Source of the DNA: Ceratodon purpureus
Lineage: Eukaryota; Streptophyta; Bryopsida; Pseudoditrichales; Ditrichaceae
DNA: 64,000 nucleotides
Direction: 5' to 3'
NCBI GenBank assembly: GCA_014871385.1
Contig: CM026426.1
Location: forward strand, 88,100,886-88,164,885
Part shown: one piece after another, positions 22,478 to 62,700 of the stretch
How positions within the stretch are numbered: the stretch's first letter is position 1
Layout of the letters: each line of letters starts with the position of its first letter
The notes under the pieces: generated by a model
What the model was told of the DNA's origin: nothing
The model's database searches: none
The model's input: only the letters and a program-made list of their open reading frames with translations
Position numbers and translations under genes: made by a program

Positions 22478-22974
22478 CTCGCCATCATCGTTTAGCCTTT
22501 AAGGGCAGTGACAAAATGTGCTTGCAGGACCTGTCAATCTTTGAGAATTTAGTTCAGCGTTAAATTGTTAATCAACTGTACTTACTTGCGGCTGTTTTGG
22601 TTAAAACCACTTCATTCACCGTTGAGATCATTCAAGTCTAGCATTAAGCCATTTAACTTCTTCCTCGTGTATCAACCTATCCGAGGAGTAGCGACAACAC
22701 CAGTTTAGACAGCAGTCACTCACTACACCGAATTGGAACTGGAACTCAACTCACTCACGCAACCTGGCATCGGGTGGAGTTGGGGTTGTATGTTGGGCTT
22801 TAGACTTTTGGGGTTAGTGTTGCTTCTGATGGAGTTTATTGAATGTATACATTGTTGTACATATGTGAGCAGTGGGTTGTCAGGAGGTAACGTGATGTCA
22901 TTTCTCGGTTTGTTAAGCCTCACCATGTCGTTGTGGGTTGTTCTGTGGGCCTAGGAGGAGCTAGTCCAGTCGCC

Positions 22975-23166
22975 GAAGTTACATTGGCTGCTACTGCGGA
23001 AGTTACATTGGCTGCTACTGCGGAAGTTACATTGGCTGCTACTGCGGAAGTTACATTGGCTGCTACTGCGGAAGTTACATTGGCTGCTACTGCGGAAGTT
23101 ACATTGGCTGCTACTGCGGAAGTTACATTGGCTGCTACTGCGGAAGTTACATTGGCTGTTACATTG
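22975..23166 (+). repeat. 24-bp minisatellite, seven full units plus a partial
   Basis: The unit GAAGTTACATTGGCTGCTAC (first 20 of 24 bases, then TGCG) repeats exactly from 22,975 to 23,142, with an eighth partial unit and a degenerate edge. Because 24 is a multiple of three, frames stay open on both strands: EVTLAATA on plus, NVTSAVAA and SQCNFRSS on minus. The open frames are therefore a consequence of the repeat and not evidence of a gene. It lies 220 bp upstream of the dioxygenase gene. Confidence 0.95.
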
Positions 23167-23389
23167 ACTCTGATAGTGAGCACTGAATTTCAATAGGGCT
23201 GAGATTGAGAGGCACAGCATCTTGTTCATTACCTTTGAATCTTGTGCCATGGGATAAAGACTTCTACCTCGGCTTATGTTGAGTAGTTGTTTGAAGCTCA
23301 TGGTGTATGCTTTGGGATAAAGATTGTTACATCGGCTTTAGCTAAGTGATAATAAGAAGCCCATAGACTTGATATCTGGTGTATGATCG

Positions 23390-30613: not shown

Positions 30614-33203
30614 ATGGCCTCCCGCGGTAAGCCGAAACGTGCCCCTGAGACGTGGGCGTTTAAGCCTCCGAGCAAGAAGAGCAACGTAGGGCCTGACCGT
30701 CGGGAGACAAGCATACGTGAAGGGGAGAGTCCCCAACCATTGAAGACCTCAGCGGCGCCCAAGTCAGGTGCATCCTCGGCGTCTAACCAGGGCAGAGTGA
30801 CCAAGAGACTCCCTCCCCCCCAAGATGTCTGTGAGGAGGTCCTCGCGGAGTTCCAGGCCATGTCTTCTAGGACTTCTGTGCCGACGTCTTCGTTAGCACC
30901 GTCTTCAGGTCCTGTATCAAAGAGCTCTGGTAACTGCAGTCGTCCAGGTACGTAGATTTCGTGGGTCATTGCATCCACGTCTCATTGAAATTAGGCCAGT
31001 GTTTTTTCGGGACTCCAAGGAAAAAAAATAACCTAGAAAAAAAATTACTAATGGAAGTTCTCGTCTCGCATGGCTCGTTCCCTTCGTCTGTTGCACCCAA
31101 TGCAGATTTTGCAGAGGACGACGGTGCTCCTTATGACCTTGGGAGCGCCGAAGAACCGTGGCCTGTATTGAAGGGCGTGTCACTTGAATTGCCAGCAGGC
31201 GGACTAGACAGTCGCCTGGATTTCCCGGAGAAAACCGCACGTGGAGGGAATGTTCCCCCTGGACACATGCCGGATCTGCACTCACCCGCCCACAGAGATT
31301 ACGATGATGACGTAAGCCATATCCGCACCCATTCATATGCCTGGGTACTACTTAATCACTTACAGTACCTGAGGACTTGCTTCATTTCCATCACTGAAAT
31401 GTTTCATGTTTAGGACAAATACGTTGTTAGAATCTCTCCATGTACTTCTCACCTCTCTCCGTTTCCTCTCAGAGAGGACGCCACCGAAGCCAAAGCCGAA
31501 ACCGTCGCAAAGAGCGGAGCTACAGTCCCTCGGATTCCTCGGCAGAGCGCAGACGTCAGCGACATGGACTAAGCTCCAGCCAGAGCTCCTACCGCCACCG
31601 ACGTCGCAGTGATGAGCATCGGGGTCGTGACTTTGATTTCAGTGACGAAGATCTTGATCTACGACACTGCTGGCAGCGCATCCGACGAGACGAACGTCTC
31701 AGTCTAGGCGCATCCGCTCGATCACATGGTTCCCCACCACCCAGAACCCCGACCCCTTCTCGCACTGGCGCGGCGTCGACCTTCAATCCCTCGTCCTCAT
31801 TAGACTCGTCGCGTATGAGGAGGGAAGGGGGCGTTCCCCCGGAGCCCGTCAACCTTGGTTTACCTGATAAACGGTCAAACCGACTGCTCCAAAGTCTGTC
31901 ACTGAACCGGGAGTCGGCTGCAAGGAGAGAACGACGTGCACGTGAGACAGAACGCGAGGAAGATGCGGACAGGAGGGAAGCCGAGGGAAAAAAGCCTCAT
32001 CTGGTCCATGTCAATTCAGAGGGGAGACCGTACGGCCTGGGCATACAATTCTGGAACGAAGCCCTGGCGAAGCTGGTTCGCGGTCTCAATCCTTCATATA
32101 TAGACATTCGTCATCAGCCATTCCAGCTCTTGCAGATTCTCTTCAAAAGACTGAGTGACGACTTCGAATACACCGCCGACGTGAATCAGTCGTGGCTAAG
32201 ACGTCGGATAGGCAATGCTCTATGCTCATACAGGCATGAGCTGATGAAGATGATACAGGCGTCTGAGCCGCGTCCGATATGGGTCTCGGAGTCTGTCTGG
32301 CAGAAATTAGTGAAGATGGAGAGCAGCGACAAGTTTCGCGCCAAGAGCGAACAGATGAAATACGCCAATTCGTGTAGGCGCAGTAAAGGTCGAACAGGCC
32401 CCATCGGAGAAGTTGGAATCCGAGAGAGACTTCGGGCACAGCTGGGTAGATCTCCGGAACCTGAGGAGGTTTACGAGGAGATGGCAAGGGACAAAGGTTA
32501 CTCCGGTAAGAGTAAGCGCGCCCCCCTCCGACCTACTTCACAGTCGGCATCTGAAGCAGATGAAACAGACGCCCAAGAAATCGATGTGGTCTCCTCTCAC
32601 CTCCACAGGCATGCTGTAGACAACTCAGGCATTGCACATGGAATAGCGCTTGCAGCCTCTGCTGACCCTCCTCCCCTTGTTACAGCAATTCCTAACTCTC
32701 CACCTGCAGGTGGAGCATGCAACCCGTCCGTTCCTCCATCTGTTTCTTCTAATCCTATGTACCTGGTCATTAGCAACCACATGAAGGAGTTACGCAGCAG
32801 TTCAGTGGGATCAACGGCGGACGGAAGAGCTCTACTAGCGGCATTAGAGGCACAACTGTCCACGCTTGTCCAGAAGGACCTCGAAGTCGTTGCGGCCCCA
32901 GTGCCACCCGTTGCTGTACCGACAGAAAACCAAGAGGGGAATGTACATGCCAACGAACATCTTAAGGAGACCATGCCCGCAAAGGTACCCCCCCCCGTCT
33001 CCACCTGCTCTACATCTCCTGAACTGAATTCACTGTTTCCCACTCTCCGGTCTGACGTTGTAACTTCTGTCTAGGTCCACTCTGGTCCTCCCCCTACTGC
33101 TGCACGAGAGGACCCGGCAACGTCTGCTCCTCCACCGCCTCCTGCGAATACTCGAAAGAGCGGGAGGAAATTAAAATGGAATACCCGGAATGATTTCAGT
33201 TAA
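30614..33203 (+). CDS. SR-rich Transposase_24-like (Ptta/En/Spm accessory) protein
   Basis: Exons 30614-30947, 31106-31311, 31473-32984 and 33075-33203 join in phase (1, 0, 0) for about 726 aa. After an acidic N-terminus, exon 3 opens with an Arg/Ser-rich stretch (RGRHRSQSRNRRKERSYSP). A conserved block follows in the middle: WVSESVWQKLVKM, KSEQMKYANSCRRSKGRTGP and LRAQLGRSPEPEEVYEEMA. This is the layout of the plant transposase_24 family (W..L, Lys/Asn-rich, then GR.P...E). The C-terminus is proline-rich and ends KLKWNTRNDFS. The last intron (32985-33074) removes an in-frame TAG. The family accompanies tnp2 in CACTA elements and is thought to help recognise element ends. The RS tract is unusual and might target nuclear speckles; that is a guess. 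Confidence 0.65.
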
Positions 33204-33958
33204 TCGGTCGATTACACCTCCATCGAGAGTTTTCAGGTACTCTTCCTTGCACTTCCAATAGACATGTCGCCACCTTCTCAACAACCGTGACTTCTTTGTG
33301 CTAAAATATGGTCAGTCATTGTAAGTCAGTCAGGTTTGTACTATTCCTCCGTTCAGAGGACTGCATTTCTCTTAGTTGTCATTCTTGCTAAGCGTGACTA
33401 CTGTGTGTGTCGCTTATGTTATGTATTTTCAGGTGTCCAGGAGTATGGCATGGACATCCCCTCGATTGCGGTGCACTTTACTATACGTCGTGCACTTCCA
33501 ACATCGAAGTTGAATTGCGAGCTGCGTAACGGTTGACCAAGGTTTCCTCTGATTCTGGGAGAGAGCTGGCTGGGAAGTAGGGGCTCACCTCCAACGTCTC
33601 CAATTACATCAGCAGTTTTTGCAGGACTTAGGTAGATAGGAAGAGCAACAATGGACTCAACTTCCGAAGACACGTTGTGAGAACAGGACCTTCCTCAGTG
33701 GGGGACACGCAGTATGCATTTTTGTAGGTTGAAATCGGCTGCTGCTCTCCCAGTGCTTTGTGCTTTGCATGAGGCGTGATGTCTTTGTTAACCAGTATGT
33801 AATGCACGTTGAATCCGTCAGGCGACATTGCAGGACCCTTGCACATTCCAAATCATTGCGTAATTGCACACATTGATCGGAACCGAATAAAACCTCAGAA
33901 GAAGTGCAAGGATATAGTAAAATTTAAAACTCTGCTGTTGTGTCACGGGAGGACCTGC

Positions 33959-34034
33959 GATGCATGATGCATGATGCATGATGCATGATGCATGATGCAT
34001 GATGCATGATGCATGATGCATGATGCATGATGCA
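33959..34034 (+). repeat. Heptanucleotide microsatellite (GATGCAT)n
   Basis: About eleven exact copies of GATGCAT occur. The unit is nearly self-complementary (ATGCAT core), so it can form hairpins on either strand. Confidence 0.95.
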
Positions 34035-34080
34035 ACGATGTTTTTGATGTCATGCAATTATTCTGTGCATCCGCAAACGC

Positions 34081-34560
34081 CATCCATAGAACTTAATACC
34101 CGCCGTGAACTGTATCGGAAGTGCACCGACGAGATACCCGTCGGCAACGTTTTCAACACCCGGATACCCAGTTGCAAATACCCGGCAGTATGTCCGTCGA
34201 TACCCAGAGAGAGATTGAAGTCCGCCGCAGACAACGTCGACAAGTATACCCACCGACCCGTACCGGATGACCGCCTCCCCAGATACCCGACCCCTCCGAA
34301 GTCCATGAAGCGAGTGATACCCGGCCACGGAGACCCTGCCCGAGTCAGCATCCGAGGTGGCCGCATCGTCAACGTCCCAACCAGGTCAGCACTCCGTCGT
34401 GGAAGACCACCAAGAGCAGAGAACTGCATCAACTGATACATCTTCCTCGCGTCCGAATCAAGACGTCCAATTCAACATCACTGAACAACACTTTTCTCTT
34501 CCCCAGCAGTTGATTAGGGCCCAGTTTTTCCTGTAGTGCGGGTAATCCTGGATCTTGGTT
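34081..34560 (+). other. Coding-like segment with eight ATACCC motifs
   Basis: A frame to 34,436 is open but rich in Pro/Arg. A second frame continues coding-like (EDHQEQRTASTDTSSS, QDVQFNITEQHFSLPQQ) to about 34,540. Eight ATACCC hexamers fall between 34,095 and 34,322. It may be broken upstream exons of the FCP1-like gene, or subterminal repeats of the element. Confidence 0.35.
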
Positions 34561-34604
34561 TGTGAATTTACCTTGTCCTCTGGAGGCCCCTGGTAGTTCC
34601 ATCA

Positions 34605-36142
34605 TCGGCGGGCAGCCGACTGATTAGGGCCTATACCAGCGGCGCCACTTGTTTTAAAAATCACATATGATACTCTACACTCTTTAGTTAAATACGCTAA
34701 GACTGTTCCCTTTCTGAACTTCCTTGCACCACACATTTGTTTCCAGTGCTGCAATTTGGTACTTCTTTTTGTAGATCCATGCATGAACATTTCCCTTGCT
34801 GCACATTGACCTTTGAGGTTTCTTCAATGCATCGTTTTGTCGGCAGTTCGCCGACGACTTTGAATATAGTCCATTTTTTCATATACTTCGTCCTGTTCCT
34901 TGATTTCCTTCACTGATTGCATTTCATATTCTTCAGGGTTCCTCGTTTTATTTCAAATGCCTTCACGGTCCACCCCATCATGTCAAGAAATGTATTGTCC
35001 TATGCGTCAATGGCCTTCTCTGCTATGTGGATCCCAGGACAGAGGCTTTGCCATGGGATACGCATCGGATTGTAGTGAAGCGCCCAGGTTTGAAGAAGCT
35101 TTTCGACATGCTTTTCTTGCATTTCCATGTTGGTCTGTGGTCGAAGATGCCCTTGGGAGAACTGAAGCCTTTACTCACACATATTCTGCCGGCCGATGTA
35201 ATGGAGAGGCTGTCCTTCGTGTATAGCAGAAGTGACCTTATCGAACGGGAGAATTTCCCCTGGAGTTATAAGACGTTAGGTCAAGTTTGCTCCAAGGTAC
35301 AGTCTCGTAACGTCTGCAAACTAGATCAAGTTCTATTTGTGGATGTTAACCCGAGGTCATTGAGGAAGACACCAAACTGTATGTGCTACATTCCTTGGCC
35401 TTTTCGGGGTCATCTAAATTTTCCAAACGATGACGGCGTTATACCTAACATTGCTACAGATACCCTTCCTCTGGTATATCCCTTGCACAAGTTCGGATCT
35501 GTACCGGAGTATATGGCGCAGGCGTGGAGGCCGGGGCAAGTGCACTGGGCAATTGAAGCTGCAAGAAAGTTTGGACGTGCACGAGTGGACTGGACTGAAG
35601 TTTGCTGGGACTGAGTTCAGCGGACTTTTTCGCCTACAACTTGCACTTCTTCCCTCCTCCTGACCAACAGAACACCTTCCATCGGCTGCCCGCCGACTTG
35701 GTCGATCCGTTTGTGCGGCCTTCAAATATATGATTTACTCATTGACCTTACGGCTATGCTTTCAGGGAAATAGTTTCCCGAGTAGGTTATAATGTGATAG
35801 GATTTACGTCAACTTGGTACATAGTGGTGGGTGTAGACTTAATGTTGTAGGACTTAATGACTCAAAGTGCTATGGGACTAGTTAGTTTAGCGTGTTCTAT
35901 TATCGGCGGGTCGCCGACTCTGTATTGTACATTTCATTACTTGAATCAACATGATATTCTTTAAAGTATTCATTGTAACTCTTATTCTGCATCATATGTC
36001 GCAATCTTCGGGTTCATATATCCATCACTGGCAAATTCCGCCCATGCACATCTCGATGTCCAGTTTTGCATTCCATATTCTGTGATATTCATGTACAAAT
36101 ACAGTGTTCATCTGTGGTCTCCATCCATCGGCGGTCCGCTGA
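34605..36142. repeat. Five dispersed 15-bp palindromes, TCGGC-N5-GCCGA
   Basis: Copies are at 34,605-34,619, 34,840-34,854, 35,682-35,696, 35,903-35,917 and 36,128-36,142 (the last with one mismatch, GCTGA). The arms are constant while the centre varies. I noticed none outside this interval. They bracket the FCP1-like exon. Such inverted motifs are typical transposase-binding sites of CACTA elements; that function is inference. Confidence 0.75.
34937..35614 (+). CDS. FCP1/NIF-like HAD phosphatase domain, nucleophile missing
   Basis: An acceptor (TTCTTCAG) precedes an open exon of 226 codons ending in TGA. It follows the FCP1/SCP (NLI-interacting factor) layout: a beta strand and loop IVLCVNGLLCYV, where the family has a DxD/DxN signature, then VVKRPGLKKLFDMLF, then FHVGLWSKM (family: vGvWSS), and near the end LFVDVNPRSLRKTPNC with WPFRGHLNFPNDD. 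The first catalytic Asp is Cys here and the late VDD motif is VDV, so phosphatase activity is unlikely. It would be a pseudo-phosphatase or a binding module. Upstream exons are uncertain. Placement between a CACTA accessory gene and palindromic motifs suggests a host domain captured by a transposon. Confidence 0.6.
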   Translation, partial: GSSFYFKCLHGPPHHVKKCIVLCVNGLLCYVDPRTEALPWDTHRIVVKRPGLKKLFDMLFLHFHVGLWSKMPLGELKPLLTHILPADVMERLSFVYSRSDLIERENFPWSYKTLGQVCSKVQSRNVCKLDQVLFVDVNPRSLRKTPNCMCYIPWPFRGHLNFPNDDGVIPNIATDTLPLVYPLHKFGSVPEYMAQAWRPGQVHWAIEAARKFGRARVDWTEVCWD

Positions 36143-37314: not shown

Positions 37315-40300
37315 TCAAGTAGACATGTCGTCATGGCTACAAGTACCAATCCAACCATGTGAAGAATCACTATCACTAGACAATACCACTCTGGCAAGTT
37401 TTGCAGCTATATCAAGATAAATCTCAGCATCACGACAAATGCTATCTCTATCAGATGAAATAGAGGGAGAAGCAGCAGCTTCATAGGCTTGAGCTTGCAT
37501 CTTCCCATAATGTGGAAGCTCAAAAGGTCTAATTGGACTCCTTATCTTACTAAGATGGCGCGAGATAATAGAGCCACCAATGTCATTCTTCATCGCTTTT
37601 TTCCGACTGCACAGGACAATTTAACAGTTTCAAAAGTATTGAACTAAAATTTAAAAATCAAATTAACAAATGTCAAATGAATGTAAAGACTTACTTACAA
37701 GAACGCTTGGGGGCAGTCTTCCTCTGAGGCTCATCGTCTGACTTAACAGGACGATTCTTCTGCGGAGAAGGAACAGGAATTGGAGTAGACTCAACCTCCT
37801 CCGTGCTTAGAAGAAGAGGCAACAACACCTGCTTGTACAAAGTGGTGTCATACTCAAAGCCTATGACATGACGCTGGAGACTCTAGGATGCTTGAAAGGA
37901 AGTACCTACACATAAATTAAAGCTCCAAGGCATAAGTAAAAATTATAAATTAAAATACAAAATTCAATATACAAAAAAAAAAAAAAAAACTAAAAATACC
38001 TATAGAAGCTGTGAGATCCATGACAATGTCATTCTCAACCGTGCATAGATCAATTTGAGCCTACAAAAGGTTAGAAGTCTTCTCCCTAGCGCCTCTGAAT
38101 GGCTTACCATTCTCTGAATTAACTGTTAGAGAATCAACAGCATCCAATTAGTGCAATGTCCATTAGAGGAGAGCTTGATGCCTTCGGCACCAAGCTTAGC
38201 CCTACCATGAAACTGAAACTTAGACACTGGAACATCCTCCTCCACATTCTCCATCTTGATGAAGCACTTTACTTGATAAAGGTCTTGTGCTCGCGTGGAT
38301 AACGATCTAGTTGAGTCAATGGCAGACCATTGCTTGCAAACCATTTTGCCTCCTCCTAAAAGTTAGCCTACTCTACCCAGGAAACAAGCTCATTCAAAAT
38401 GAACTTCGAGTCAGGGTAAAAAACAATCAAGGCTCCATCATCCTGCAGAAACTGCATAGCAAACTCAAAATGGGCCTTAATCCAACTAGACTTGATTTTC
38501 TTTCCTGCTAAAATCTTGGGGTGCCTGTTCCAAGAGGGAATCTCACCATCCCGGCCTAAATATGGAACAGGTAAATCCTCTGGAACATCAAAAATGATGA
38601 GGTCCACAGCAGCCTCGGCCTCTTCACCTCTCAAATTCCTAGCCTTGCTATCGTGATTCTCCTTGATCCAATCCTTGATCTTGCTCCAAACCTTAGGTTC
38701 ATTTCCCTCCGATTGATCAGTAAACAACTCCAAAATGCCCATAGGGCAATTATTGATGATCTCAACACTAGTGTCTACCTCATCCAACTGTGAGCATGGA
38801 ATCTTGTAGACAGTCTGAGAAAGCATGGGGGTAGAAAAATGAGGCACCTGAGGAACTAGAGAAAGTATGGCAGCAGGCATGCTCCTCCTTGAAGGAGAAA
38901 TGCCAACATGAGACATCAACTTCTTTGGCCCTTCCTTTAGAACAAGTTTTGCCAAATCCTTGTTCCTTGCTGCCACTTCCTTCTTGAGCTTGACTTATTG
39001 CTCCTTCTCCTTCTTCTTGTCCTCCTTCTCCTTCATCCTCGCCTCAGCCTTAGCCTTCCTCTCAGCCACCTTCTTCTTCTGTCACTCAGAAAGGGCTACA
39101 TCATCACCAACCTGGGAGGTATCCTCCTCCATATCTACCATGCTTTCATCCACAAGCTGCTTCATCAAATTCTCATAACTTGCTTTAAGTCCTCTTTCCT
39201 CCCTGGGACAAATATCATTCTTCTTGAACTCAAGGTACCAAGGACACTGAAGGAGATGAGGAGCTCCAAAATGCCTCCTCTTATAATCTGTAAAATGCAT
39301 TCACTGCTAGAGACATCCGCCCACTTCTTAAAATGCTGAGGAATATCCTTCTTGTCAATGGCACCCTTAACAACCAACTCCCTCCAAAAATACCTCAAGA
39401 TAGCCCGCTTCATAGCATTCTCAGCACCAGCTTGGTGGAGAATTGGCTCTTTCTTGGTAAAAGTTTCAGCCTTAGGAAAAAAAGTCTTTAAGGCTTTCCC
39501 CCACAAAGTGATGGAATGAGCCTCAATCCATGAGCCAATATCTTCTACAGAATTGGGTAAATCCTCTGTCCTCAAAATTATGATGTCCTCAGGCTCTACA
39601 ATCTTGGCATAACGAATGACTGCCTCCTCCTCTAACTGCAAAAAAAATCAATTACAAAACACATAAGAATACATGACGATTCTTATGATAAAGAGTTATG
39701 TAAAACTGCAATAAGCAACAACCGTGAAGAGAAGTGCTAAAGCTTAAGAATTAGAAACTTACCCCAGCCCAGAAGGCAGCCTGATCAACCTAAAGCCAGA
39801 GAACTAAATCAGAAGCTGGTTGTGGAGGAAAATTGTACTCCTGCCGACTCTCCTTGCTCATGTTCCACCACTTCAACTACCTCTCTTTGTACTTGGCAAA
39901 AACCTTAGCACTTGCAATAAGTTGCAACTTCATAGGCGTCATCTCAGGCTTTGCGTTGTAAATGTCAAAGTGCTAGATGATCTGCAAACAAGTCAAGCAT
40001 CATCTCAAAATAAGTTCATATCATTTCATATAATCTAATTGAAATTAAAGAACAATTAAGCACAACTATGCATTACGAATATAAGGGAGACTAGAAAACA
40101 ACATACTTTAAATGGAAGATGTATTGAGGCAGCATACAATTTACTCGAAAACGAATAAAGCTCTTTAACGATTGTCTAGCATTTCATGCAGATCGCAAGC
40201 CTCCAAGTGAGGCTTGCCACGAAATTAAAAAATTAAAAGGAAGTCCTTGTCAACTCAAGGCAAGCAATATCCACGCAAACACTCACAAGCAATGAACACG

Positions 40301-43300
40301 AATATGATAATCCCAAACAAAATGCAAAAAACATTGAGCCTCCAGCACTGGGCTGGAGCTCATGCAACAGAAAAAGTGAAACAGGAAGCGAGCAAAGGGG
40401 CACCCCTCGAATCCGAGGGATGGATCGGGGTGCCACTTCAACTTAGTTTTAATCAAACAGGGCAAGCAAACCGCAAGCCTCCAAGTGAGGCTTGCGTCAA
40501 AATAAAAAACAAACAGGAAGTCACTACCTAGTGGATGCAGGCAGTTTCCAGCACGAGTCAATGGCAAAGCACATTGATCATTTAAAGCAGTTAGAAAATA
40601 CAAGAAACGAAGAGTCTCCAGCACTGGGTTAGAGCTCATGGGACACAATAAGTGAATGCACAATCGAGCAAAGGGGCACCCCTTGGATCCAAGGGATGGA
40701 TCGAGGGTGCCACCTGAACTCACTTCCAACCAAACATGGCAAGCAAACCGCAAGACTTCAAGTGAGGCTTGCTTCAAAAAAACAAAAATCGCAAGTCCTT
40801 GACTACTTGATGCAGGCAATTTACACCGTGAGTCACAAGCAGAGATGGACCGTTTAATCTCAAAGTAAATACCAAAAATAAATAGTCTCCAGCATTGGGC
40901 TCCTTGTAAATAGTGACATACCTCTTTGATAAATCCATCACCGTTAGCTGGATTAGCGATCGCAACGAAACGATCCAATTGTGTGGATAGCGATGTTTTC
41001 CTCACTTCAACAGCCTTTTTACTAGCAGTAAGGAGCTCAGAGGGACTTCCATCCCTATCTTCTCCCAATCCAATTATCAGGGAGTCTTTGTATGCTCGAA
41101 TTGCCTTTTCCTGAGCGGCTAAAATCTCCCTCTAGATGCACAATATCATATAGTTAGTTGTAGAGTAATTACAATATTAGAGAACAAGGCAAGGATAATT
41201 AAATAAACTTGCTTACCTTGTATAAGAAGTTGATGAATGTATGATGTGTAAGATGATACCATTTCTTGTTTTTAGTGCGTGTCCACTCAAGAATGCTTGC
41301 CTCCAAGTCCTTGTCCTTCACAACACCTTTCAGTTGGTCAAAGTCCAACAAACCCAGTTGTTGGACACGCTTCACCTCATGGGTCCAGTGCTGTGCAACG
41401 TGGTCTACCTGATTCTTCTTAGAACACATTACAGAGAGATTCATAGATATTTAACATAAAAAAATTTGACATTGGCAATGAAATCAAATGGATTAGTTAA
41501 AGGAGACTCTACAAAACCATTATTGAATATTCAGAAATGTTTGGAGTACTTACTTGTTCCAATCAGTCATGGCGTGCAACAACATATTGCAATTCTCGCG
41601 TGTGACGTTGATTATAACTGAGCAAACAAAAATATGGAATTTTGCATCATGTTGATGAAGTGTGTTGATGCTTTCTGACCATGCAATGTGTCGATGATTC
41701 CCGTCCCAAACATAGAAAAATCGGTTAGAGAATTTCTCCAACCCGGGAGTAGAAAGCAAGCGCTCCTCAAACTCACAATCCTCCTTGCGCCATAACTCTC
41801 ACCACGATGCCCTGTCCGTCTCTGTGACAAATGATTCCTCCATCCTAAAACTCTTTAACGAAAGATAGAAGCATACCGAAGCCCGCCTGTATCCACGCGT
41901 GAATTTGGCCTTGAGTATTTGAATGTTGTTATTCAATGGCTCCCTCACATCCTTCCTCGAAATCATTCTGCAGAGTGGCACGTCAATCTCCATACGTGGC
42001 AAGTCTACCACATTCTAAAGTGCAAGGTGTGAGGTACCCATGACTTCCTTGCGTAGCATATTTTCCATTGCTGCCATGCCTCCTAAGCTATTGTCCATGT
42101 CAGCAGATGTGCAAGGTACCTCTCCCATCCCATGCTCGGTGCTCATCTGCAAGCCATCCAAATAATCAGTGAGAAGTTTACAAAGCAGCATTAGTGGCAT
42201 CAGAATTAGTCCCCAACAATTGCGATACTGCAGGTTGCAGCCACGAATATATAGTTGACATCCTAAGCATTTCATTTTGTGGTCAAAGATGCATTCAGCT
42301 GAATGTATTGAACTATTGGAGAGTATGATGCACCCTCAAATAATATCACCGAATTGACTACGCAGCAATCTGATATGAGTCAATATCCTCGAGTGTAAAG
42401 AACTAAGAGAATGTCAAACAAAGATTTTAACTTACCTTGTTGAATTCTACAGACTACCGAGCTGCTGATGGAAAATCCGGGAGCTGACTGGAGTGGTCTT
42501 CCTCGACGTTCCCGATCTCTTTGATTCTCTACCTTGAAGTATCAGGGAGTTCAGTCACATGCGAGCAACCACTATAAGTACCCAAACAAGAACTTAATTT
42601 GAATTGAAATCGAATGATCAAAGTATCCTAGTGCAGTTTTGCATGAATCTCAATTTGCAAGATTTAAAATCTATCAAATGACATAGCTGAACAATTTGAC
42701 AAGAAAATCGCACTTACCAGTGTGATTCCGTGGACCTTCTCATACTCCAATGAGCATCCAACCGGCAGTATAAAGCTAACTTCTCTTTCCTCGGAAAAAT
42801 CCCGACGACCCTCGCACTCAATTCCACCGCATGGAATCACCTGCAAAAGAACCCAAGATCTTGAGCCATTGAGAGTGCTATCCTAGGGTTTCTACCTGGT
42901 AAGATGAACACCAAACAGACTGAAATGTTTGAATAAAAACATGTTGATTTCTTTAATTGAGCCGAGAACTTGCGATGGGTTTCTGTCACAAAACTCTACC
43001 TGCGATGGATTGTTGACGGCAGCAAGTGAATCGGAGAAGCATGCCCTTGGTGCTGGTTCAACTCCCTCGCAATGAAGGTTGCTTCTAGTGTTGCCTAGTG
43101 AGCTGACCTGCAAGAGGCCCGTACACATGTCGTGAGAGTCAACGGGGTAACCTGAATGACTTACTCTTCATTCTTACTTTGTCATCCCTCAATGAGTTCG
43201 CATATTTAATGTAACCTTCACAGTATGCCTATTTCATATACAATACCCTTAGATTTGAGACGCCCTATACCAGTGTTCAGAGACATCGCAGTACATATTG

Positions 43301-43502
43301 CTCAGGTATAAGCAAAATGAAAAACAAATATGCGTACAAAAAATATATACGACCATTAGTAAGTAGGCACCAAATAAGACATACCTCACATATGGCTCCA
43401 AATGCTTTGATCTTGAGATTGTCAATTTTGTTTGATGAGAAATCCACTTCTGCAATACTACTAATAGCCTCCTTTTCTTTTCTTCTCTCCTGAGCTTTCA
43501 CC
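37315..43502 (-). pseudogene. ParB-like domain fused to a beta-type DNA methyltransferase, decayed
   Basis: Exons read leftward include about 43385-43500, 42999-43106, 42718-42840, 41553-42146, 41217-41420, 40922-41131, 39763-39981, about 38350-39636, 38000-38060, 37699-37905 and 37315-37606. The 41553-42146 exon has the ParB/sulfiredoxin-type motif FYVWDGNHRHIAW after LKAKFTRGYRRASV. Further on come a Lys/Glu-rich helix, then LIIFDVPEDLPV (motif IV, DPPY-like), KAHFEFAMQFLQDDGALIVF, and lastly DIVMDLTASIG (motif I) and HVIGFEYDTTLYKQVL. Motif IV before motif I is the beta-class amino-methyltransferase order. Breaks: in-frame stops at 42015 and 41798, three TAG in 39763-39981, stops near 39,079 and 38,995, and frameshifts near 39,300 and 38,270. 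A DNA N6-adenine or N4-cytosine methyltransferase guided by a ParB-like module is the likely ancestor; substrate unknown. Confidence 0.6.
40195..40860 (+). repeat. Tandem repeat of about 277 bp with an internal hairpin
   Basis: Three hairpins of the form GCAAGCCTC-CAAGT-GAGGCTTGC lie at 40,195-40,217, 40,473-40,495 and, slightly altered, 40,750-40,772, so the spacing is 278 and 277 bp. Between them TCCAGCACTGGG, GAGCAAAGGGGCACCCC and GAGGGATGGATCG recur. The array lies in the interval between two exons of the methyltransferase relic. It interrupts no coding block, so it sits in an intron or arrived there as an insertion. Confidence 0.85.
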
Positions 43503-44389
43503 TGCTTCGGATTACTGGAATGACTACTTCATCTCCTCCCTCTACCTCTAGTCGAACATGATCTAGGAGCCCTAGGCACTCTTGGACTCGTTTCTTCCCC
43601 GTCCCTCATGTGTCTCACTAGCACGATCCCGTATACATACAACTAACAAGGAAGATAATCATGAAAGCAAGAAATGTTTAGTCTAGCGTCATTTAGCAGC
43701 CTTTGTGTATGTTCAATTTTCCTCTTACTAATACTGGCATCGTCAGTGCTATGTGTTTTTGCTTTTGTCAGGATATAATTTAATTATAGTATTAGCATAC
43801 ATCTGGATTAATTAGGATAAATATTTTTATTAGCAAAAAGATCCATTTGTAAAGAATATGAGATGTTTGATATTTAAATCGTAAATCCCTTGAGATTGGC
43901 TTTGCATGACCTGTACGTGTGTTAAATTGTCAAAATTTAAAAACTGACCAAAATCCAAATCCCTATTTAAATTAAAGGTCATTCCTTGAGGATTATATTG
44001 ACGGCTAGTTGTTATCATTGTATTAGCCCCACATGACATGGTTGGCAGTCTCTGCCGCCTAATCACTTTAGCATGTCAGATATATTCTAACTTAAATTTG
44101 TATTGTACAGGTCATATGATTTCCACAAGTACACTATATTTATTTTAAGAAAATATTAGTTGGCGTTCTATTCAGTCCACTCAGAACTATATAATCTCTA
44201 CAATGTTATGGAGACACAACTCATCTTCTTCTAGTCTTCCGACTCCACCTCTACTACAATGCATGATTGTACTTCTTCCATCTTCTATAGTACGCTTAGA
44301 ATGGCCTCTCCTCGCTCTCATGACGGAGGTGTTCCATTTGTAATGTTGTAGGTCTAGACAACAGGGTAGTTGTCTAAGAGCAGCTTCTG
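43503..44389. other. Divergent intergenic region of the MULE/methyltransferase element
   Basis: About 0.9 kb of AT-rich DNA between the oppositely oriented relics. It would hold both promoters if the genes form one unit. A TATA-like run TATAATCTC near 44,190 is weak evidence. No coding frame is seen. Confidence 0.35.
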
Positions 44390-47300
44390 AGTCTGAGATT
44401 TGAATTTAGAGCAGGTACCATTTATGTAGAAGAAGAGATCTTTGATGATAATGGAGAGATTCGTGAGTGTATTTTTCAAGTGAAGGATAGTACTGCCGAT
44501 GGTTACTTCCGGACTCTTGCGAGTGGAACTTTCAAGGTTTACGGGATATCAGATGCACAGATGTCTGGGTCGACAATACTCTTGACCCCCCCTCCTTCCA
44601 CGTCAACTTTCGGACTCCTAAGTCTCAAGAGTCAAGTTGTCCATCTCAACAGAGTAGTCGTTCTCGTATGTCTCTTTCATTGTCTATAGGCCGTCCTCCT
44701 ATTCACCCTCCTTTAAAAAAAAAAATAGAAGTATCCTGTTTGCCATTAGGATGGCGGCGTCAAGAAGAGGCTCCCGCTCAAAACTGTCGTAGATTGATTC
44801 TGACACCATCAACCATGAACAAGTGAAGTATTTACCGCCACTTTACGACGGGGACAAGATTTTTGAGCTGCCACCTCTACCCAAAGGAGTTCGAACTCCA
44901 TTTGGAGGTGGCATGGGCGGGATGAGCAAGCAGTATGATGGCCACACCTGGTGCAAGACGATAATCACAAACATCAAGAAAGAGTATGGCCTCACATACC
45001 GTAAGTCCTCCTGTACTGGACACTTATGATGTCCAAATGTGAGTTGCGATTACATTTGCAGGAATAATGGGGAGGTAAAGAGCACCGAATGGTCAAGTGT
45101 AGCTTTAGTACCATTTTCTGTGGGAGAATCTTCCTCGGAAAAATCCACTTTAACATGCAAAGTATCCCAGGCACCTCCTGTTTGTCTCGCATTGTGCGAT
45201 GCTAGGATCTATCACGTATCGTCTTCGGATAATGATGTTACTCGTGCGGCCATTCATTTAGGACGTCATAGACATCTTGTATCTCAAGGTAGATGTCAAG
45301 ATTCTATGTACATAATGTTTGATTGCATTGCTAAGGAAGTTCAGAAGACACTTAACTCCAAGAACTCTGCTATTGTTTTAGCGGCCAGCAAGCAGTGCCT
45401 TACCGATGCTTTAATCCGTCCTACTGCAGGAGGCAGTCATCTTCGGGGAGCATCTATGGATGCTGTAATGGACAAATTTGAGACTCTTACTTCACCATAT
45501 ATACGGAATTTTGTTTCTGGATCGAAGAGATTTTTCCATCAAGGAAGGGGAGTTACAGATAGCATCCTGGAGCTGAAGGACTACTCCAACTTTGAATCCA
45601 TCCATCGAAATCAATTCCCTGGACAGAATGAAGGCAAGGTATTTCGGTTCAAAATGTCAACTAATCGTCCAGGAAGCGAGGTGGATTTGGTGAAGCGCAT
45701 GCAGCCTAAAGGTGATCTTCAAGACTGCTGGATTGTGTTCGACCATGTTAGGCGTGTTGCTGATTGGACCACCATGGCATGCCACGTTTATGACAGTACG
45801 TACTGTAAAGTTATGAAAATTGCCCTTTGTAACATGCAATCTCAATATGCTGCTGCTCAGGAGTTATTTTGGCTCCAGCTGAATGAAGTTGTGCGGAAGA
45901 ACGACCTTGAAAATACAAATTTCAAAGGATTCATGGCTGACAATGCTAGAGCCAACTAGCACGCTCTTTGTAAGGTATATGGGAACGGAGATCCCAATGA
46001 TCCTATGGAAGACCGGGCTCGCACGTGTCTTTTCCACTGGACAAAGTGCCTTCAGAGGGCAATGTCCCGCAATATCTTGCCAAGCTATCAAGACCAACGC
46101 AAAGCTTTATGCAAAGTATGGAAGGATGCAAAGACCCAAGTGGAAGCAGAAGCATAGTATAATGTCATCCGCGGGTGGTGGCTTTCGTCACGCGCTACGA
46201 TTGAAGAAGGAAGGCGTCACCTAAATGATTGGATGGCTTTTTGGCACTTGCGATACAGACAATAGGGAGGCTTGATGCGGTTTGTAAGTTCAATTGTCTT
46301 CCAACCTTCCATCAACTGTTAGTATACCTTGAATTTCATTTATAATCTTGGAAATCACATAATTTTTTTTTTATTTTTTTTTTCTTGGATCTTACACTTG
46401 AGGAGAGAGCCGACATACCTTCCAGCAACCTTGCGGAAACCGTCCACAATAGATAGCTTCAACAATTAGGAAATACAATGACGTGTTTGTACGAGGCAAT
46501 AGTCGATGATATGATCCGAGCATTCATGCAGATCACAAGTTACCGCTCTTGGCTGAAAGGAGGAAAGGGCGGTAAAGGTCCGGATAGAGCAGAACTTTGT
46601 TTACGCCACGCTCAACGCTCTGGTGATCCCAAGTTGATTGCTGAGGCAGTGAACTCCTACCCGGGAGCCGAGGATATATTGATGAAGAAAGGAGGCTTGA
46701 AAGGTGCTGAGATTTATGGATCTACGAAAGAAAAGTTAGATTTGCCGCCCAATTCCAATCATGTCTCTCATCACTATGATGCACTGAATTATTCCATTCC
46801 TCGTGGTGGTAAGAGGTCCACAAGAGCATGCATTGAGGAGGCCCTTTTTCAGCCTCACTCGGGTATTAAACACTCTACTTTAGTTCAAGAGACAGATTGC
46901 GACCCGTCTAAGTGGCACATTGCCAGACTATCCGGCAAGTCTAACCGAAAATGCCAAGCAATGCAAGCTCATACAAATGAGAAGTGCGATACCCAAGTGC
47001 ACCGAGGTACACATAGTACGCTTACTCCTACCTATGTAGGGCTGAAGAAGGAGTTTAGAACCGATCGCCATATTTCTACAGACTTCTGGTTTTGCGCCGA
47101 TGACATTGATAGATATGTGAAGGGCACAAAGAAGTCATTTGTGATTGATTTTCCATCTATCCCGCAGACTTGGCCTGTCAAAAGGGGCACAAACCTAACC
47201 ATCAAAGAGATTTTGGCTCTTGAAGAGGCCAGCTTCCAACTCCAACAATGTGGAGCACTATCACCTCGTCGTCAGTTCCAAGTTGCTGCTAATATGCCAC

Positions 47301-47747
47301 TTCCAAGGAGTCATTTCCCGGTTCCTTTCAATCCGGATACACACCCGACGACTCGAAACGGATATGCCATTAGGAGAAGTTCTAAAGCTCCTACCTCCGA
47401 CCACCGCAACAAGTAGAGCAGCGCGGGTCTTATAAACAACTATTGGGTGACAAGTGTCACATTGATCCCATATCCAGGACATCTCCTTAAAGAGTCCAAA
47501 TGAAACGATATACTGTATCACCATCACGGACTTCCCTCGATGTACTTGCCCCGACTTCATGAAAATGACTTCGGAAACCCTTGGAAAAAGAGGCCAGTGG
47601 AAGTATTGCAAGCATGTTTATTATATCTTCCGCTATCTATGTGAGATGGATAACAAGGTTCATACTTTTATGCATGCCCCTAGCTTCAGCTTCAACGAAG
47701 TTATGTGGGTACTGGAGCTAGCCAAACTTACTGAACCGCTTGAGTAG
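44390..47747 (+). pseudogene. MULE-type transposase (zinc finger, DDE region, SWIM finger), decayed
   Basis: The reading order is: an N-terminal exon about 44,400-44,600 (DSTADGYFRTLASGTFKVYG); a WRKY/GCM1-like zinc segment with CTGHL, a stop, then CPNVSCDYICRNNG (44,960-45,070); the catalytic-like region 45,700-46,270 (WTTMACHVYDSTYCKVM, FKGFMADNARAN); a downstream region 46,478-47,416; and a SWIM finger at about 47,545-47,625 (CTCPDF...CKH). Finger, DDE region and SWIM in this order are typical of Mutator-like transposases. Stops are TGA 45027 and TAG at 45957, 46155, 46263, 46454 and 47414. Several replace what context suggests was Trp or Gln. A GT donor follows MRF near 46,281. It is non-functional as it stands. 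MULE membership is inferred mainly from the zinc and SWIM modules. Confidence 0.65.
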
Positions 47748-48599: not shown

Positions 48600-51433
48600 T
48601 CAGTGCGGACTTCAACAGATGGTAACTGAGGTTTAGGGGTACATAAAATGGTGGAGTCTTCCTCACCAATAGCTTCAACGATTTGTTTTTCCTCACTTAA
48701 TGATGAACTCCCTCATTAATACTTCTTTTGCGTTTATTTGTTGGTGATGAACTTTCTTCATCACTCTCTTCAGAATCAGAAAGACTGTCTTATCAAATGA
48801 TTCACTTCCTCTTTCCAACCAAAGAGGATATTTGATTGGACACGGCCCTCAAACCTTATCAACATAAACTTCTTTCCACGTCTCGAGCCATAGATGCATT
48901 TCTACATTTCCTTCCATAAGAATGAGTTGTTCAACTCTTCCACTGACGTTTTCTATTAGGTGAGAGAATCCCTCCGTGATTATCATCCAATCTATTTGAT
49001 AAAAGTGACTAATCAAAGCTTCAATAACGGCTAGACAACGAGCCCACCAAAATTTGGAACACATATTCCATCCATGTACTGGCTCAATATAATAAGAAGC
49101 GATATTTTGCTTGTCTTTAGCAAATTTATCCTCTAAAAATGATTTAGGAGGATGGCGTAAAACAATAATATATTGTCCAAGTGGAGAGAATTTGCCAACA
49201 GCTTTTGGTCCATCTTTGACAACCAAACTAGTATTCTTTGATTAAGAACCAAAGATATATGTTCCAACCTCAACATAATATTCCGCAATATTATCCAAAC
49301 ACATCAAATTCTTGATGAAATCTACATTCTCTACACCGGGTAGCATAAAAAAGCACATTCTATCTCTAGACTTCTCCCATCCATAACTTGATCTTATCAA
49401 GTACCAATGAGTACTCTGCCTTCAACCAATAACCACCTTCAGGTCTATATCAACAATCAAACACCCACAATGCTCTTCTTCCCAATGAACCTTCATTGAT
49501 TTTAAAAATGAAATCACCAATCTTCACATCAGTATTAAATCCAAATCCACTTGCTCCTTAATAACTCAATTTCCAAGCACCATCTTCTTCCTGTGGAATG
49601 GCTTTTCATTGAAATAAAACCCCAAACCATCGCGTGAAACTAGGATATGATGGTGAATCACATTACAAGGAATCAAATCTACATGTGTGCGTTGTTTACC
49701 ATAGGGTGTTTGAGGATTGATATGGCTCCTGTGCTTCTGAAAATCAGGACCTTTTGGAATATTCTTTGCAAAATAATCTATTGCATCCTTGCCTCCAAAC
49801 TTCTCCACATCTACTTCTAGCCAATTCTTGTTCTCACCAAGTAGATTTTTGTGACCAACTTCCAACCATTTGAAGGCATTTTGAATTCCAGCTCGAAGTT
49901 TTGCTACTTCACACCAATGTTGTAATTATTTTCCATCATCTCCGCCAGCAAAATAAATTTCTTGCTTTGTATCCAGAGAATCCACCGTTGCCAATTTACA
50001 AAGCATGATGTGTTCATTTGCAGTTAAACCTTGACGAGGCCGGTGCCAACCAATAGACATACTTGGACGGTCTCCACTGGAGGTTTTGGCTTTTTCCCAC
50101 TGTACATTGTTGGAACAGCAAGCTTTGTAATTCATTGCTTCTTTGACTTGAAAGTAAGTCCATTATCATAGGCATCACACATGACCTTCAATGCTTCCCA
50201 ACAAGTATCTGGTAGTGTGATCATAGAAACATAATTACAAAACTTGATTCTCATATCTTTGTGAGAGGTCTCACCTACAACCAACCGTTGGCTTGTAATT
50301 CCTGGCAAACAACGCAAAAAATCTTTTCTTTTGTCATCATCTGCATTCCGACGACCAAAAGTATCCCACAATAATCTTGCTTTCTCCAACATTTCACCAA
50401 TAGTACTGTGGTACTTTTTTTTTTTGTAATGTCATTCAATCTTGTTGATAAATATAAATACGTAATATCATCATCATAAAAAACAAGCGTTGGAGGCCGT
50501 CTTGATAATATACTTTTATAGTTTTTTCCGCATTCTTCACATTGAGGATGCGTTGATTACTGAATCTATTTGTTGGAGCTCTCACATGATGAATATGAAT
50601 CATAAAAGAAAAATCTCTTTTGAAGATATATCCTTTGTCAATTTCATCTTGAGATGGAGGATTTAATAATTTCTTCCCCATAGATTTTTCATTACTCTTC
50701 TTAGAGCTGACAAGTTTTTTTCTTTTTCTTTTAGAAATAGCTCAAGAGGGTTCTTGAGTAGATGAAACAAGATCATCAGCTGTTAGTTCAAAACGTGAAT
50801 TTCCTCCACAAAGCTCTCCAAATTCAAATGGAGTAGGAACTTCACGGTGTGATTGATTTTGAACGCGTGAATCCTGATTTTGAGAATCGTCATCTGAAAT
50901 GAGAATGCTCCATAACATTTTTTGTCTGATGTTGGACGGTTTGGCTTCTCCAAACCTAGAATATTCAAATTATCTCCAACTGAGGCAAAATGCTCATGAG
51001 CATCCACGAACTCAGTCAACTCCATCTCCTCTGATTCAGTCAAATTCATGAATACATTCAACATAGAAGTACAAAGATTTTGCCTTGTCTCCTTCAACTC
51101 TATCCACCATTTCCGTGCTTTCAATAAAACTCTAATTTTCATGCCAACCAAATCATCTAAACTTCCAATAATATTGGAAGTTTTCAGAACAATAGAAGTA
51201 ACACCAGTTCTTGCATTTGGTATAACAGAAATCTTGCATGAACCTTCTTCCCCTGTAAAAGCTAGAACCACAATTTTTTGATTAGAAGCTCCTCTTTTCC
51301 ATATCTTCAAATATAAAACCTTTCCTTCTTCCCAAGAATAATGAGTGATTTTCAAAATAATGTGTTTGTCATCTCGTGTAAGATACCATCCATAATCTTT
51401 AAAAGCATCCAAAGGCTTCGAAGTCTTTGACAT
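48600..51433 (-). pseudogene. Decayed unknown gene, several frame breaks
   Basis: Minus-strand coding-like segments run almost end to end: 51433-50783 (ATG start, 216 aa), 50681-50436, 50392-50132, 50135-49926, 49865-49566 and 49226-48849, with coding-like sequence between them in other frames. The first segment has GVTSIVLKTSNIIGSL and KARKWWIELKETRQNL. The last has SPLGQYIIVLRHPPKSFLED and NIASYYIEPVHGWNMCSKFW, followed by VEQLILMEGNVEMHLWLETW. Nearly continuous coding potential without large introns, broken by stops, points to a single-exon ancestor of about 900-1,000 aa, probably TE-borne. I do not recognise the family, and no catalytic motif is evident. Confidence 0.5.
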
Positions 51434-51549
51434 TTTTGCAAATTCTTTCTTTCATGGCGGTGGCATTGCAAATTTGCCTCATAAATCCTACAAAATAGTA
51501 AAAAATTAAAAAAAATTAAAAAATTGTATTTTAAACGCAAAAGGATAGT

Positions 51550-54199: not shown

Positions 54200-54873
54200 T
54201 GTTACTGCCCCAGCAAGACCAGCGAGGATAGCCTAGGATGGTGGAACTGATAGTGCAACAAGGAGTTACAAGGAGAAGTCTAGTTAGATTAGTATAAACA
54301 AGGTATCCAGGGTAGAGAACTCACTCCTCAGTTTTGTGGTGAGAGTCGAGTCCGGTCTCAGAGCAGCTGGTTTTTCCTAGGACAGCTTGCCCCTTCATGT
54401 AAGCGCCTGAACCTTGGTGTTCATGGACAGTCCTGGGTTACTCCGCTAATACTACACTATGCCTTCTCTACTCTCTGCCCTCCCCTATCTCACTTGTATG
54501 CATCCTGCTTGCCGATTGTCATTACATGTCTAAGCTCACGAGTCTTTGATCCTTACCTTGCACTGTCCCCGCTACCGAACCCTTCTCGAACTCCCTTTGC
54601 TTCTCTCCCTCTCTTGGTGTTCACGGGGTCTTGGTTGTGACTTCACCTGTCTGTCTTCCCCGTCTGTCTTGGAGTTGAACCGCGTGCCCGTGGAAGACCC
54701 AACGGTCTCAGGACCGGTACTCAAAGGGACACCCTGCTAGCCCTATGACCGTGTCCCGAGACTAACACCCACGGTCAATCTTCAGTCTGCCTGTGTAGCT
54801 ACTCTCAAACTTCTACCCTTAGCCCCCTCTAACTCTCACCTCAGGCAGCTCCATGTTATGACCCAGGTTAACA
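54200..54873 (+). repeat. 5' LTR
   Basis: 674 bp, TG...CA termini, same length as the 3' copy. An ORF inside (54,546-54,740, extended in the other LTR) is considered incidental. Confidence 0.96.
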
Positions 54874-54876
54874 TTT

Positions 54877-54893
54877 TGGCGACCATGCTGGGA
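54877..54893 (+). other. Primer-binding site
   Basis: Three T follow the LTR, then TGGCGACCATGCTGGGA. It starts with the TGG complementary to a tRNA CCA end. I cannot assign the tRNA with certainty. Confidence 0.75.
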
Positions 54894-54943
54894 ATGGTCT
54901 GCTGAGGTTATTCCAAATACTCCTTGAAAACTAAACTCTCACC

Positions 54944-56118
54944 ATGCCTCGAAGGAAACTCCCTTTGGAGCGAATTAATGAAGCAGAAGACGCTGCTCAA
55001 CAAGAGGACGCCGAATCCACGAAAGAATTCCTAGTATGGATGAGGCAACAAATGACTGATCTGGTAGCCAAAAACGAGGCTACTAACGCCAAGTTAGAGC
55101 TACTCAGTGCACAATATCACACACTACAAGAAAGCAGGACACAGGAGGCTCTCCACCCCATGGCTCAGGTTTCAGAGTCCCTCCCTGAAACTATAAGGTC
55201 CACAACGTTACCCCGAGAAAATCATACTGCTGCCACAGGACCTAGCCAAGGGGACCTAGGTAAACATACCAAGTATCCCAAAATCTCATACCCTGTGTTT
55301 GATGAATCAAGAGATCCAGATTGGCACATCAGACGTTTCAAAGTTATTGCCCGTACAAATGGGGTCACCAGCACCGAAGATCTCCAAAACATTTTCGGCA
55401 CCACACTCCAAGGAAACCACATTAATTGGTACATTGATTTTGAAACTGAACACTCCCACGCAACCTGGGAAGACATGGAACGGAGTTTTCTACATAAATT
55501 TAGAAAACTTAAAACCAGTTCTTAGGTCCTAAGAGCTTTGGGTAGCATTACTCAGGACAGAAATGACCCCTTGACAAGTTCTACGATAGATTCAAACAAC
55601 TGGCTGACAAAGTAAGTCAGAGACCTGAGGAAGATTATCTTTGCGAATGGTTTAAAAAGGGACTGTTACCATGGATTCAACAAGGCATTGTAATCCGTGG
55701 GGTTAAGACTTTACAAGATATTCTGAGTGCGGCAAATGACATTAGCCGAGAGTTAGGGGCCTTGAACAAAACCCAAACACCCTTGCTACCTTTGCCAAAT
55801 TTACGACCAGAAAATAGATCACCAGTAACTCCCTGCTCCAGCTGTGGAAAAATCCATGGAGGACGTTGCTGGTATGCTAATACCCCTTCTAGAACTGAAG
55901 AGAACCGCCGTCCCCGTCCTACCACGGCAGCCGTGTATCCAGAGGAAATCAATGTTGATGCCTTCCAGCCCTGCCGAAGCGATGCCTGCTGGGAATGTGG
56001 ATCGGTAACCCATCGACGAAGAGAGTGTCCACAGCTACACCAGAGATGGGCCCAGTACCGTACTAACCCAAGGAATCATGGCACCGGAGAACATCAGAAA
56101 GTTCCTGGAACCCCTTGA
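54944..56118 (+). pseudogene. gag: gag (capsid and nucleocapsid), broken
   Basis: ATG 54944 opens a frame with an acidic N-terminus and the capsid-like segment YPVFDESRDPDWHIRRFKVI. A stop at 55523-55525 and a shift near 55,570 break it. The remainder (FYDRFKQL-type text shifted, then RPEEDYLCEWFKKGLLPW and IVIRGVKTLQDIL) continues to 56,118. Two Cys/His knuckles are visible near the end: CSSCGKIHGGRC (irregular spacing) and CWECGSVTHRRREC (C-x2-C-x4-H-x4-C). Gag packages the RNA in virus-like particles; this copy cannot make a full protein. Confidence 0.85.
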
Positions 56119-56172
56119 CGAGGAGGAGTCACACTTACTGAGGTCCATGGAGTCGAAACTAATGTATCCACA

Positions 56173-58869: not shown

Positions 58870-60080
58870 TCGCCATTCTCCATGACGGACCTGCAGGTGG
58901 TCATTAAGGCCCTGACACCACGATCAAAAAAATTTTGACTGCCCGCTATTGGTGGCCAACCTTACACAAGGATGTCCACGAGTACGTTAAGCACTGCCAT
59001 GCATGCCAAATTTCTACCACGAATTTTCAATATCAAGGCCGTGTACCATTAAAATCCATCCCACCGTTGGGACCATTCCAGTGTTGGGGACTAGATTTTG
59101 TTGGCCCCATTAGACCCGCAACCAAACAGGGGTACAAGTACATCTTGGTAGCCACGGATTATACCACCAAGTGGGTTGAGGCAAAACCTCTCAGAACGAA
59201 CACGGCCATGGTCACAGCAACTTTCATATATGAAAATATTATTACCCGTTTTGGCTGCCCCATGGAGATAATGTCCGATCAAGGAAGCCATTTTGTAAAC
59301 GCAGTGATAGAAGACCTCTTAGATAATCACATCATCAAACACAGAACTAGCACAGTCTACTACCCCCAAGGAAATGGACAAGCAGAGTCTACCAATAAAA
59401 CCTTGATCAACATGTTACGCAGGTTCATACATGCAAATCAGAGTGATTGGGATGATTGTCTGCCTGCAGCCCTGTGGGCATACCGTGTTGCCACAAAAAC
59501 AGCTACCCAGGTAAGCCCCTTCGAAATGGTATATGGTACACAACCTCTATTACCTACCGAATACATAGCCCCCACGTTCCAATCCCTGGATCCCAAAGAC
59601 TACACGCCCCATTGAGTCCTGGCTGCTCGTCTGAGGGACATCCACCATCTAGAGGAAGTTCGAGCCTTTGCACTTAAAAACATCCAAAACAAACAGGAAA
59701 AAACTGCAAGATATTTCCAAGCTTCCAAACCAATCCGGGCTTTTGAAAAAGGCGACCAAGTTTTATGGTGCCCCCGAGACCCAAAAATTAGGAAGACTAA
59801 ATTTGAATCAATATGGCATGGGCCGTACCGGGTTCAGCTGGTGCTTCCAAATAATACTGTCCTATTGGTAAATAACGATTACTTTGACAAACATGCTACC
59901 ATTGTTAATTCCACCAAACTTAAGCATTATCATTCGGTCACCACGGAAACCGCCCCCACGCTTAGCCTTGGGGAGATTTATAAAACCATGGCCACTGAGG
60001 CACAAAATGATGAGGAACCCGAGGAAACAACTCAGCCCAAGGAAACAACTCAGCCCAAGGAACCCATGGATCCCATGGAA
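58756..60080 (+). pseudogene. pol: pol, integrase part, with two stops
   Basis: After the frameshift the frame has a His-His-Cys-Cys zinc region (ILHDGPAGGH ... CHACQ) interrupted by TAA at 58905-58907. It continues with the catalytic core: D in [11 protein letters not shown] in IMSDQGSHF and E in GNGQAEST, with 35 residues between the second D and E. A TGA at 59613-59615 separates a C-terminal segment (VLWCPRDPKIRKTKFESIWH), a GPY/F-like module, that runs on to about 60,080. The element integrates through this enzyme; both stops look like C-to-T changes in Gln and Arg codons. Confidence 0.9.
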
Positions 60081-62654: not shown

Positions 62655-62686
62655 AGACCAACAATTCGGGACGAATTGCACTCTCC

Positions 62687-62700
62687 GAGGGAGGGCAAAA
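62687..62700 (+). other. Polypurine tract
   Basis: GAGGGAGGGCAAAA lies directly before the 3' LTR, where plus-strand DNA synthesis is primed; it is purine apart from one C. Confidence 0.85.

Follow-up and report, generated by a model that had tools for sequence, protein, structure and literature searches.

A degraded gene in Ceratodon purpureus joins a putative ParB-like domain to a methyltransferase-fold domain with an altered catalytic motif

Exon structure and decay of the gene

The DNA analysed here (the window) is a stretch of 64,000 nucleotides from the moss Ceratodon purpureus (assembly GCA_014871385.1, contig CM026426.1, positions 88,100,886 to 88,164,885), and all positions below are in the numbering of this 64-kb window. 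Its minus strand carries the remains of a gene that combines a putative ParB/Srx-like domain with a methyltransferase domain. An earlier note, made from the sequence alone, had described the gene as an intron-containing relic, and all the peptides quoted there were located in minus-strand frames, where it had placed them.

Relatives of the gene were collected with two queries. The methyltransferase exon, read through and with its Lys-rich part masked, gave eight relatives (32–61% identity), and the ParB exon gave 13 (47–80% identity), all of them open reading frames (ORFs) without stops. A search with the unmasked full-length protein returned no relatives, probably as a result of the candidate list being taken up by Lys-rich matches. 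When the 21 relatives were compared with the window by tblastn (E ≤ 1e-3), exons D to I mapped in order at this locus and nowhere else in the 64 kb, and the peptides therefore belong to one gene and are not a chance assembly. The methyltransferase exon reached a best E value of 1e-161, and the ParB exon by itself one of 4e-106. The exon map also draws on two contigs carrying related genes, L038 (CADCWO010000058.1) and L039 (CADCWO010000134.1), and is as follows.

42481..43113, minus strand: 5' exons (about three), variable tail; tblastn match to residues 1-105 of the Ceratodon protein P0011, 31% identity, E 7e-18
41554..42146, minus strand: exon D, putative ParB/Srx-like domain (FTRGYRRAS, WDGNHRHIAW), two in-frame stops; 13 stop-free relatives by tblastn
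41217..41417, minus strand: exon E, linker region, 5' border approximate; P0011 spans D-E, L038 1327-1515 matches at 48%, E 1e-21
40922..41131, minus strand: exon F, 210 bp; tblastn L038 5e-23, L039 1e-23
40150..40900, no strand: repeats in the F-G intron at a spacing of about 277 bp
39763..39981, minus strand: exon G, 219 bp, three in-frame stops; 64% to L038 and L039, E 1e-29 and 2e-29
38000..39635, minus strand: exon H, conserved domain, Lys-rich helix and methyltransferase core, three frame breaks, five stops; eight relatives, tblastn 1e-161
37695..37905, minus strand: exon I, completes the motif I region (TSFQAS, HVIGFEYD) and continues into the tail, with one stop; P0003 and P0007 by tblastn
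37315..37606, minus strand: exon J, C-terminal tail ending in the stop codon; L038 4320-4523 matches weakly, 33%, E 6e-4

The match to P0011 begins at about 43113 (tblastn); a candidate exon at 43385-43600 was supported by none of the relatives and was dropped. Exon H contains a C..H..C pattern (PHLLQCPWYLE), a predicted Lys-rich helix, DVPEDLPVP at the position of motif IV, and DLTASIG as motif I. The F-G intron is only 86 bp long in L038, and its window counterpart contains the repeats listed above, which have a palindromic GCAAGCCTCCAAGTGAGGCTTGC core. No Rfam family matched the window at gathering scores.

Eight stop codons in the window copy stand opposite residues of the relatives (42015, 41799, 39082, 38995, 38368, 38356, 38061 and 37883). 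This count leaves out intronic stops, those close to frame breaks, and a single stop in the 5' part, where the alignment is weak. Exon G contains three further in-frame stops, and tblastn places breaks in the reading frame of exon H near 39292, 38275 and 38141. The window copy is therefore a relic, in agreement with the earlier description.

An intact relative

One of the 13 relatives found with the ParB exon, P0011, comes from a 16.8 Mb record of Ceratodon purpureus, from which it follows that the gene occurs in a moss nuclear genome. L038 and L039 were retrieved when prokaryote genome contigs were scanned with the alignment of the methyltransferase, and are filed under a cyanobacterial metagenome-assembled genome. 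Both contain GT-AG introns, and they are probably plant DNA in the metagenome bin, that is, eukaryotic contamination of the cyanobacterial assembly. The relative P0004 matches the two contigs at 98% and 93%, and is thus not independent of L038.

Exons D to J are all present in L038, a contig of 4.7 kb, in the window order and with a frame that stays open through the GT-AG joins. Counted from the first ATG of exon D, the joined frame encodes 1136 amino acids, and exons upstream of D may be missing from the contig. Exons F and G are identical in length in L038 and the window (210 and 219 bp), and exon H differs by 6 bp (1642 vs 1636 bp). The GT-AG junctions fall at the same exon borders, in keeping with the plant-type introns proposed earlier, and the position of the H/I intron is identical in L038 and L039. 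The two domains are joined in one protein in L038, as read from its sequence, with the ParB identity resting at motif level.

L039 is without exons D and J. Over exons E-I, synonymous divergence (dS) between the two contigs is 0.32 and nonsynonymous divergence (dN) is 0.025, a ratio of 0.08; the ratio is 0.11 in the methyltransferase part and 0.06 in the part before it. Over these exons, strong purifying selection therefore acts on at least one intact paralogue pair.

The methyltransferase domain

The predicted structure is a Rossmann methyltransferase fold in which motif IV precedes motif I. Of four assembled sequences, the window read-through (38.7 bits) and the spliced P0003 (31.4 bits) pass the PF01555 cut-off of 26.7 bits. 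Together, the fold and these two Pfam matches bear out the beta-class order of motifs that had been read from the sequence. Weak matches to a T7-like gp13, a contig labelled as Listeria phage (with an ORF that is hydrolase-like by eye) and a Sinorhizobium plasmid stretch were taken as chance, and the PDB list for A3 was discarded as low-complexity.

CcrM and other beta-class DNA amino-methyltransferases (PF01555) carry the motifs DPPY, TQKP and DPFxGxGT. The moss proteins differ at all three. Motif IV reads D[VI]PE in all seven relatives that cover it and does not fit the catalytic pattern [DNS]PP[YFW]: the Asp and one Pro are retained, while the aromatic residue of DPPY has become Glu and the other Pro has become Val or Ile. 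The TQKP position reads RE[KR][ST], again in seven of seven, and motif I is mostly DLTASTG. The earlier note had left it undecided whether DVPE was decay or a real variant; its presence in the relatives rules out decay and supports a real variant. Since both DPPY and TQKP are replaced in the relatives, ordinary N6-adenine or N4-cytosine methylation is doubtful. The motifs suggest that the domain may have changed its chemistry or substrate, or may serve as a selected, non-catalytic module binding S-adenosylmethionine (SAM) or DNA. There is a parallel in the METTL14- or MTA9-type inactive partners of MT-A70 enzymes, in which a methyltransferase fold whose DPPW-type loop is altered is likewise under selection, although they belong to a different clade and the moss protein has no known partner.

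The ParB-like domain

The sequence WDGNH is present in 12 of the 13 relatives found with the ParB exon, and the GxxR (Box II) motif in 10; the exceptions are P0011, which has lost the Gly, and P0014 and P0016, which have lost the Arg. ParB folds are described in the text of PMC12704722 as binding nucleoside triphosphates via the GxxR arginine. The predicted order of strands and helices, of low confidence, agrees with that of ParB_N. A PHROG scan of six relatives gave one faint match to a ParB-like partition family (P0012, E 0.16), and the domain of the ParB exon found no support in Pfam, NCBIfam or PDB. Motif and layout nevertheless make it quite probable that the N-terminal domain is ParB-like. 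The ParB/Srx-type domain proposed earlier is thus plausible at the level of motif and layout.

Searching IMG/VR for exact DNA-pattern matches to WDGNHRxxA yielded 19 stretches. One contains a ParB_N-like protein among its open frames (L026; excerpt 1.2e-4, below the cut-off). Another, L017, has a ParB-like start, traces of helix-turn-helix families and an N6_N4_Mtase match at 3.7e-35, with no ParB_N match; contigs L029, L030 and L035 are related to it, and L028 lies on the same contig. The remaining frames with the pattern are not ParB-methyltransferase-like, and several of them are so short that they resemble chance matches. One of the viral contigs (L009) holds an open frame of 3360 residues with WDGNHRVEA and an RNase_T domain, resembling a polyvalent protein.

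The viral fusions of a ParB-like domain and N6_N4_Mtase (L028-L030, L035) have the same domain order as the moss gene, and L028 also has WDGNHRxxA in common with it. They differ in several respects. L028-L030 have DPPY or DPPF and TQKP, unlike the D[VI]PE and RE[KR][ST] of the moss proteins, and the helix-turn-helix trace of L017 is a further difference. The moss proteins have an additional stretch of 40 residues before the motif, with no aligned counterpart, as well as a different middle part and introns. Scans of viral contigs with two short patterns gave no confirmed relative of either half, and a scan of genome contigs with two short patterns gave no relative of the ParB half; such absence is weak, and the latter scan also missed the ParB exon of L038, which was found later.

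The text of PMC12704722 describes fusions of a ParB fold with an N6_N4 methyltransferase as commoner in phages than in bacteria, and a bacterial ParB-methylase is reported in the text of PMC5512222 to nick DNA.

Transposon context

Upstream of the gene, and in the opposite orientation, is a second relic, which starts about 1.3 kb from the supported 5' end.

44402..47746, plus strand: transposase-like relic with several stops, limits set by eye; translations YDSTY ... MADNARAN ... CLFHW, and late CTCPDF ... CKH, SWIM-like

We take it to be transposase-like from its DDE- and SWIM-like patterns; Pfam gave only SWIM at E 3.9, which is no support. The two relics may belong to the same element. There is an algal precedent for such an arrangement: the Sola1 transposon of Ectocarpus carries a ParB-like/methyltransferase gene of 1104 amino acids opposite its transposase, and its authors, in the text of PMC12477816, suggest for such proteins a role in binding and marking the element that encodes them, citing further cases. 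The algal protein, compared by description only, resembles the moss gene in its two domains, its eukaryotic host, its length (1104 vs 1136 amino acids) and its probable placement on the strand opposite the transposase. The moss gene differs in its land-plant host, in its D[VI]PE motif, and in that no transposon ends were found.

Elsewhere in the window are the following features.

4398-8305, plus strand: remnant of a CACTA-type transposon, Transposase_21 (tnp2) 3.5e-70, DUF4218 6e-35
22924-23210: array of 24-bp tandem repeats
31431-35614, plus strand: Transposase_24-like ORF (2.5e-4, below cut-off), then an NLI-interacting-factor-like phosphatase domain (24.5 bits against a cut-off of 21.8); the phosphatase may be carried by a transposon
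48849-51451, minus strand: two ORFs (130 and 222 aa), with no Pfam match to E 10 (222 aa) or to 0.01 (130 aa)
54200-63000, plus strand: long terminal repeat retrotransposon, with direct repeats of 300 nt at 54200 and 62701 (99% identity) and reverse transcriptase and RNase H between them

Discussion

On balance, we favour the reading that a multi-exon gene of moss type has left a dead copy at this locus, that the gene encodes a protein of about 1100 amino acids (ParB/Srx-like N-terminal domain, middle part with a Lys-rich helix, and beta-class N4/N6-type methyltransferase), and that this protein most likely acts as an accessory factor of a DNA transposon. The ParB-like domain would provide nucleotide-dependent DNA binding, and the SAM-fold domain would mark or read the DNA of the element, with its catalysis changed or lost.

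Several results weigh against this reading. PF01555 scores remain under the cut-off for the spliced P0007 (25.3 bits) and L038 (20.5 bits), and the eight unspliced ORFs all fall below it as well, the highest score being 16.2 bits for P0003; six of the eight, P0003 and P0007 being the exceptions, stop short of the last methyltransferase motif. The selection test excludes the ParB exon, which is absent from L039. Ten of the 13 relatives were scanned for ParB_N (PF02195), as was L038, and none matched; the AlphaFold model of the ParB domain is poor, with a predicted local distance difference test score of 43, and fold searches with it returned no ParB structure. In hhalign comparisons with phage ParB domains, with the 40-residue stretch removed, the region before the motif aligned in register (Prob 92.5), but column-shuffled controls reached the observed score in 38 of 200 cases with the motif kept and 19 of 200 with it masked, so that the profile match mostly reflects the shared motif; the targets of the first comparison had moreover been picked by the motif, which makes that one circular. 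No terminal inverted repeats above random were found around the locus, and one hand-picked pair of terminal repeats was equalled by 2 of 300 random pairs. For the suggested old acquisition by a plant transposon, support comes only from the algal precedent and the adjoining transposase-like relic.

It is possible, if rather unlikely, that the fusion was captured long ago by mosses and is now a domesticated, cellular gene family, the window copy being an ordinary pseudogene among transposons. Such a history would fit the common intron positions, the terminal repeats not found at the locus, and the two open-frame paralogues with low dN/dS over a dS of about 0.32, although selection between active transposon lineages also yields low dN/dS. 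The transposase-like relic adjoining in opposite orientation argues against it, as does the published case of the same layout, which sits in an algal transposon, with others cited (text of PMC12477816).

We think it improbable that the protein still works as a DNA methyltransferase whose catalytic motif has simply diverged, placing N6-methyladenine (6mA) or N4-methylcytosine on transposon DNA. The beta-class fold and motif order, the dN/dS of 0.11 in this part, and the retained Asp and Pro of motif IV are what such an enzyme would show; the Glu and Val/Ile in DPPY and the loss of TQKP, each in seven of seven, and the unusual motif I are not. Similarly improbable is an unrelated N-terminal fold with a chance GNHR motif, which is consistent with the lack of Pfam, NCBIfam and PDB support and the non-significant shuffle controls, but not readily with WDGNH in 12 of 13 relatives, the register of the region before the motif, the faint PHROG match (one of six relatives), the low-confidence predicted strand-helix order, or the layout shared with the published algal protein and with a viral ParB-like/methyltransferase protein carrying WDGNHR.

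The layout itself is already known in phages and algal transposons. Among the matches listed in the open-access literature there was no land-plant ParB-methyltransferase and no land-plant family with a fixed D[VI]PE loop, which does not prove that none exists. Neither plant nor moss is mentioned in the main text of PMC12704722, and six plant or family terms are absent from the main text of PMC12695648.

The gene bears on two questions: do land plants possess DNA methyltransferases of bacterial type, and to what end do transposons employ them? Tentatively, mosses might contain a selected family that pairs a phage-style ParB-like DNA clamp with a methyltransferase without amino-methylation, either a transposon-encoded SAM-dependent reader or a new chromatin chemistry, long kept despite the lost catalytic loop. 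Genes of the L038 type are open, selected plant genes suited to expression and testing, and the conserved change in the catalytic loop predicts that their product may not be 6mA.
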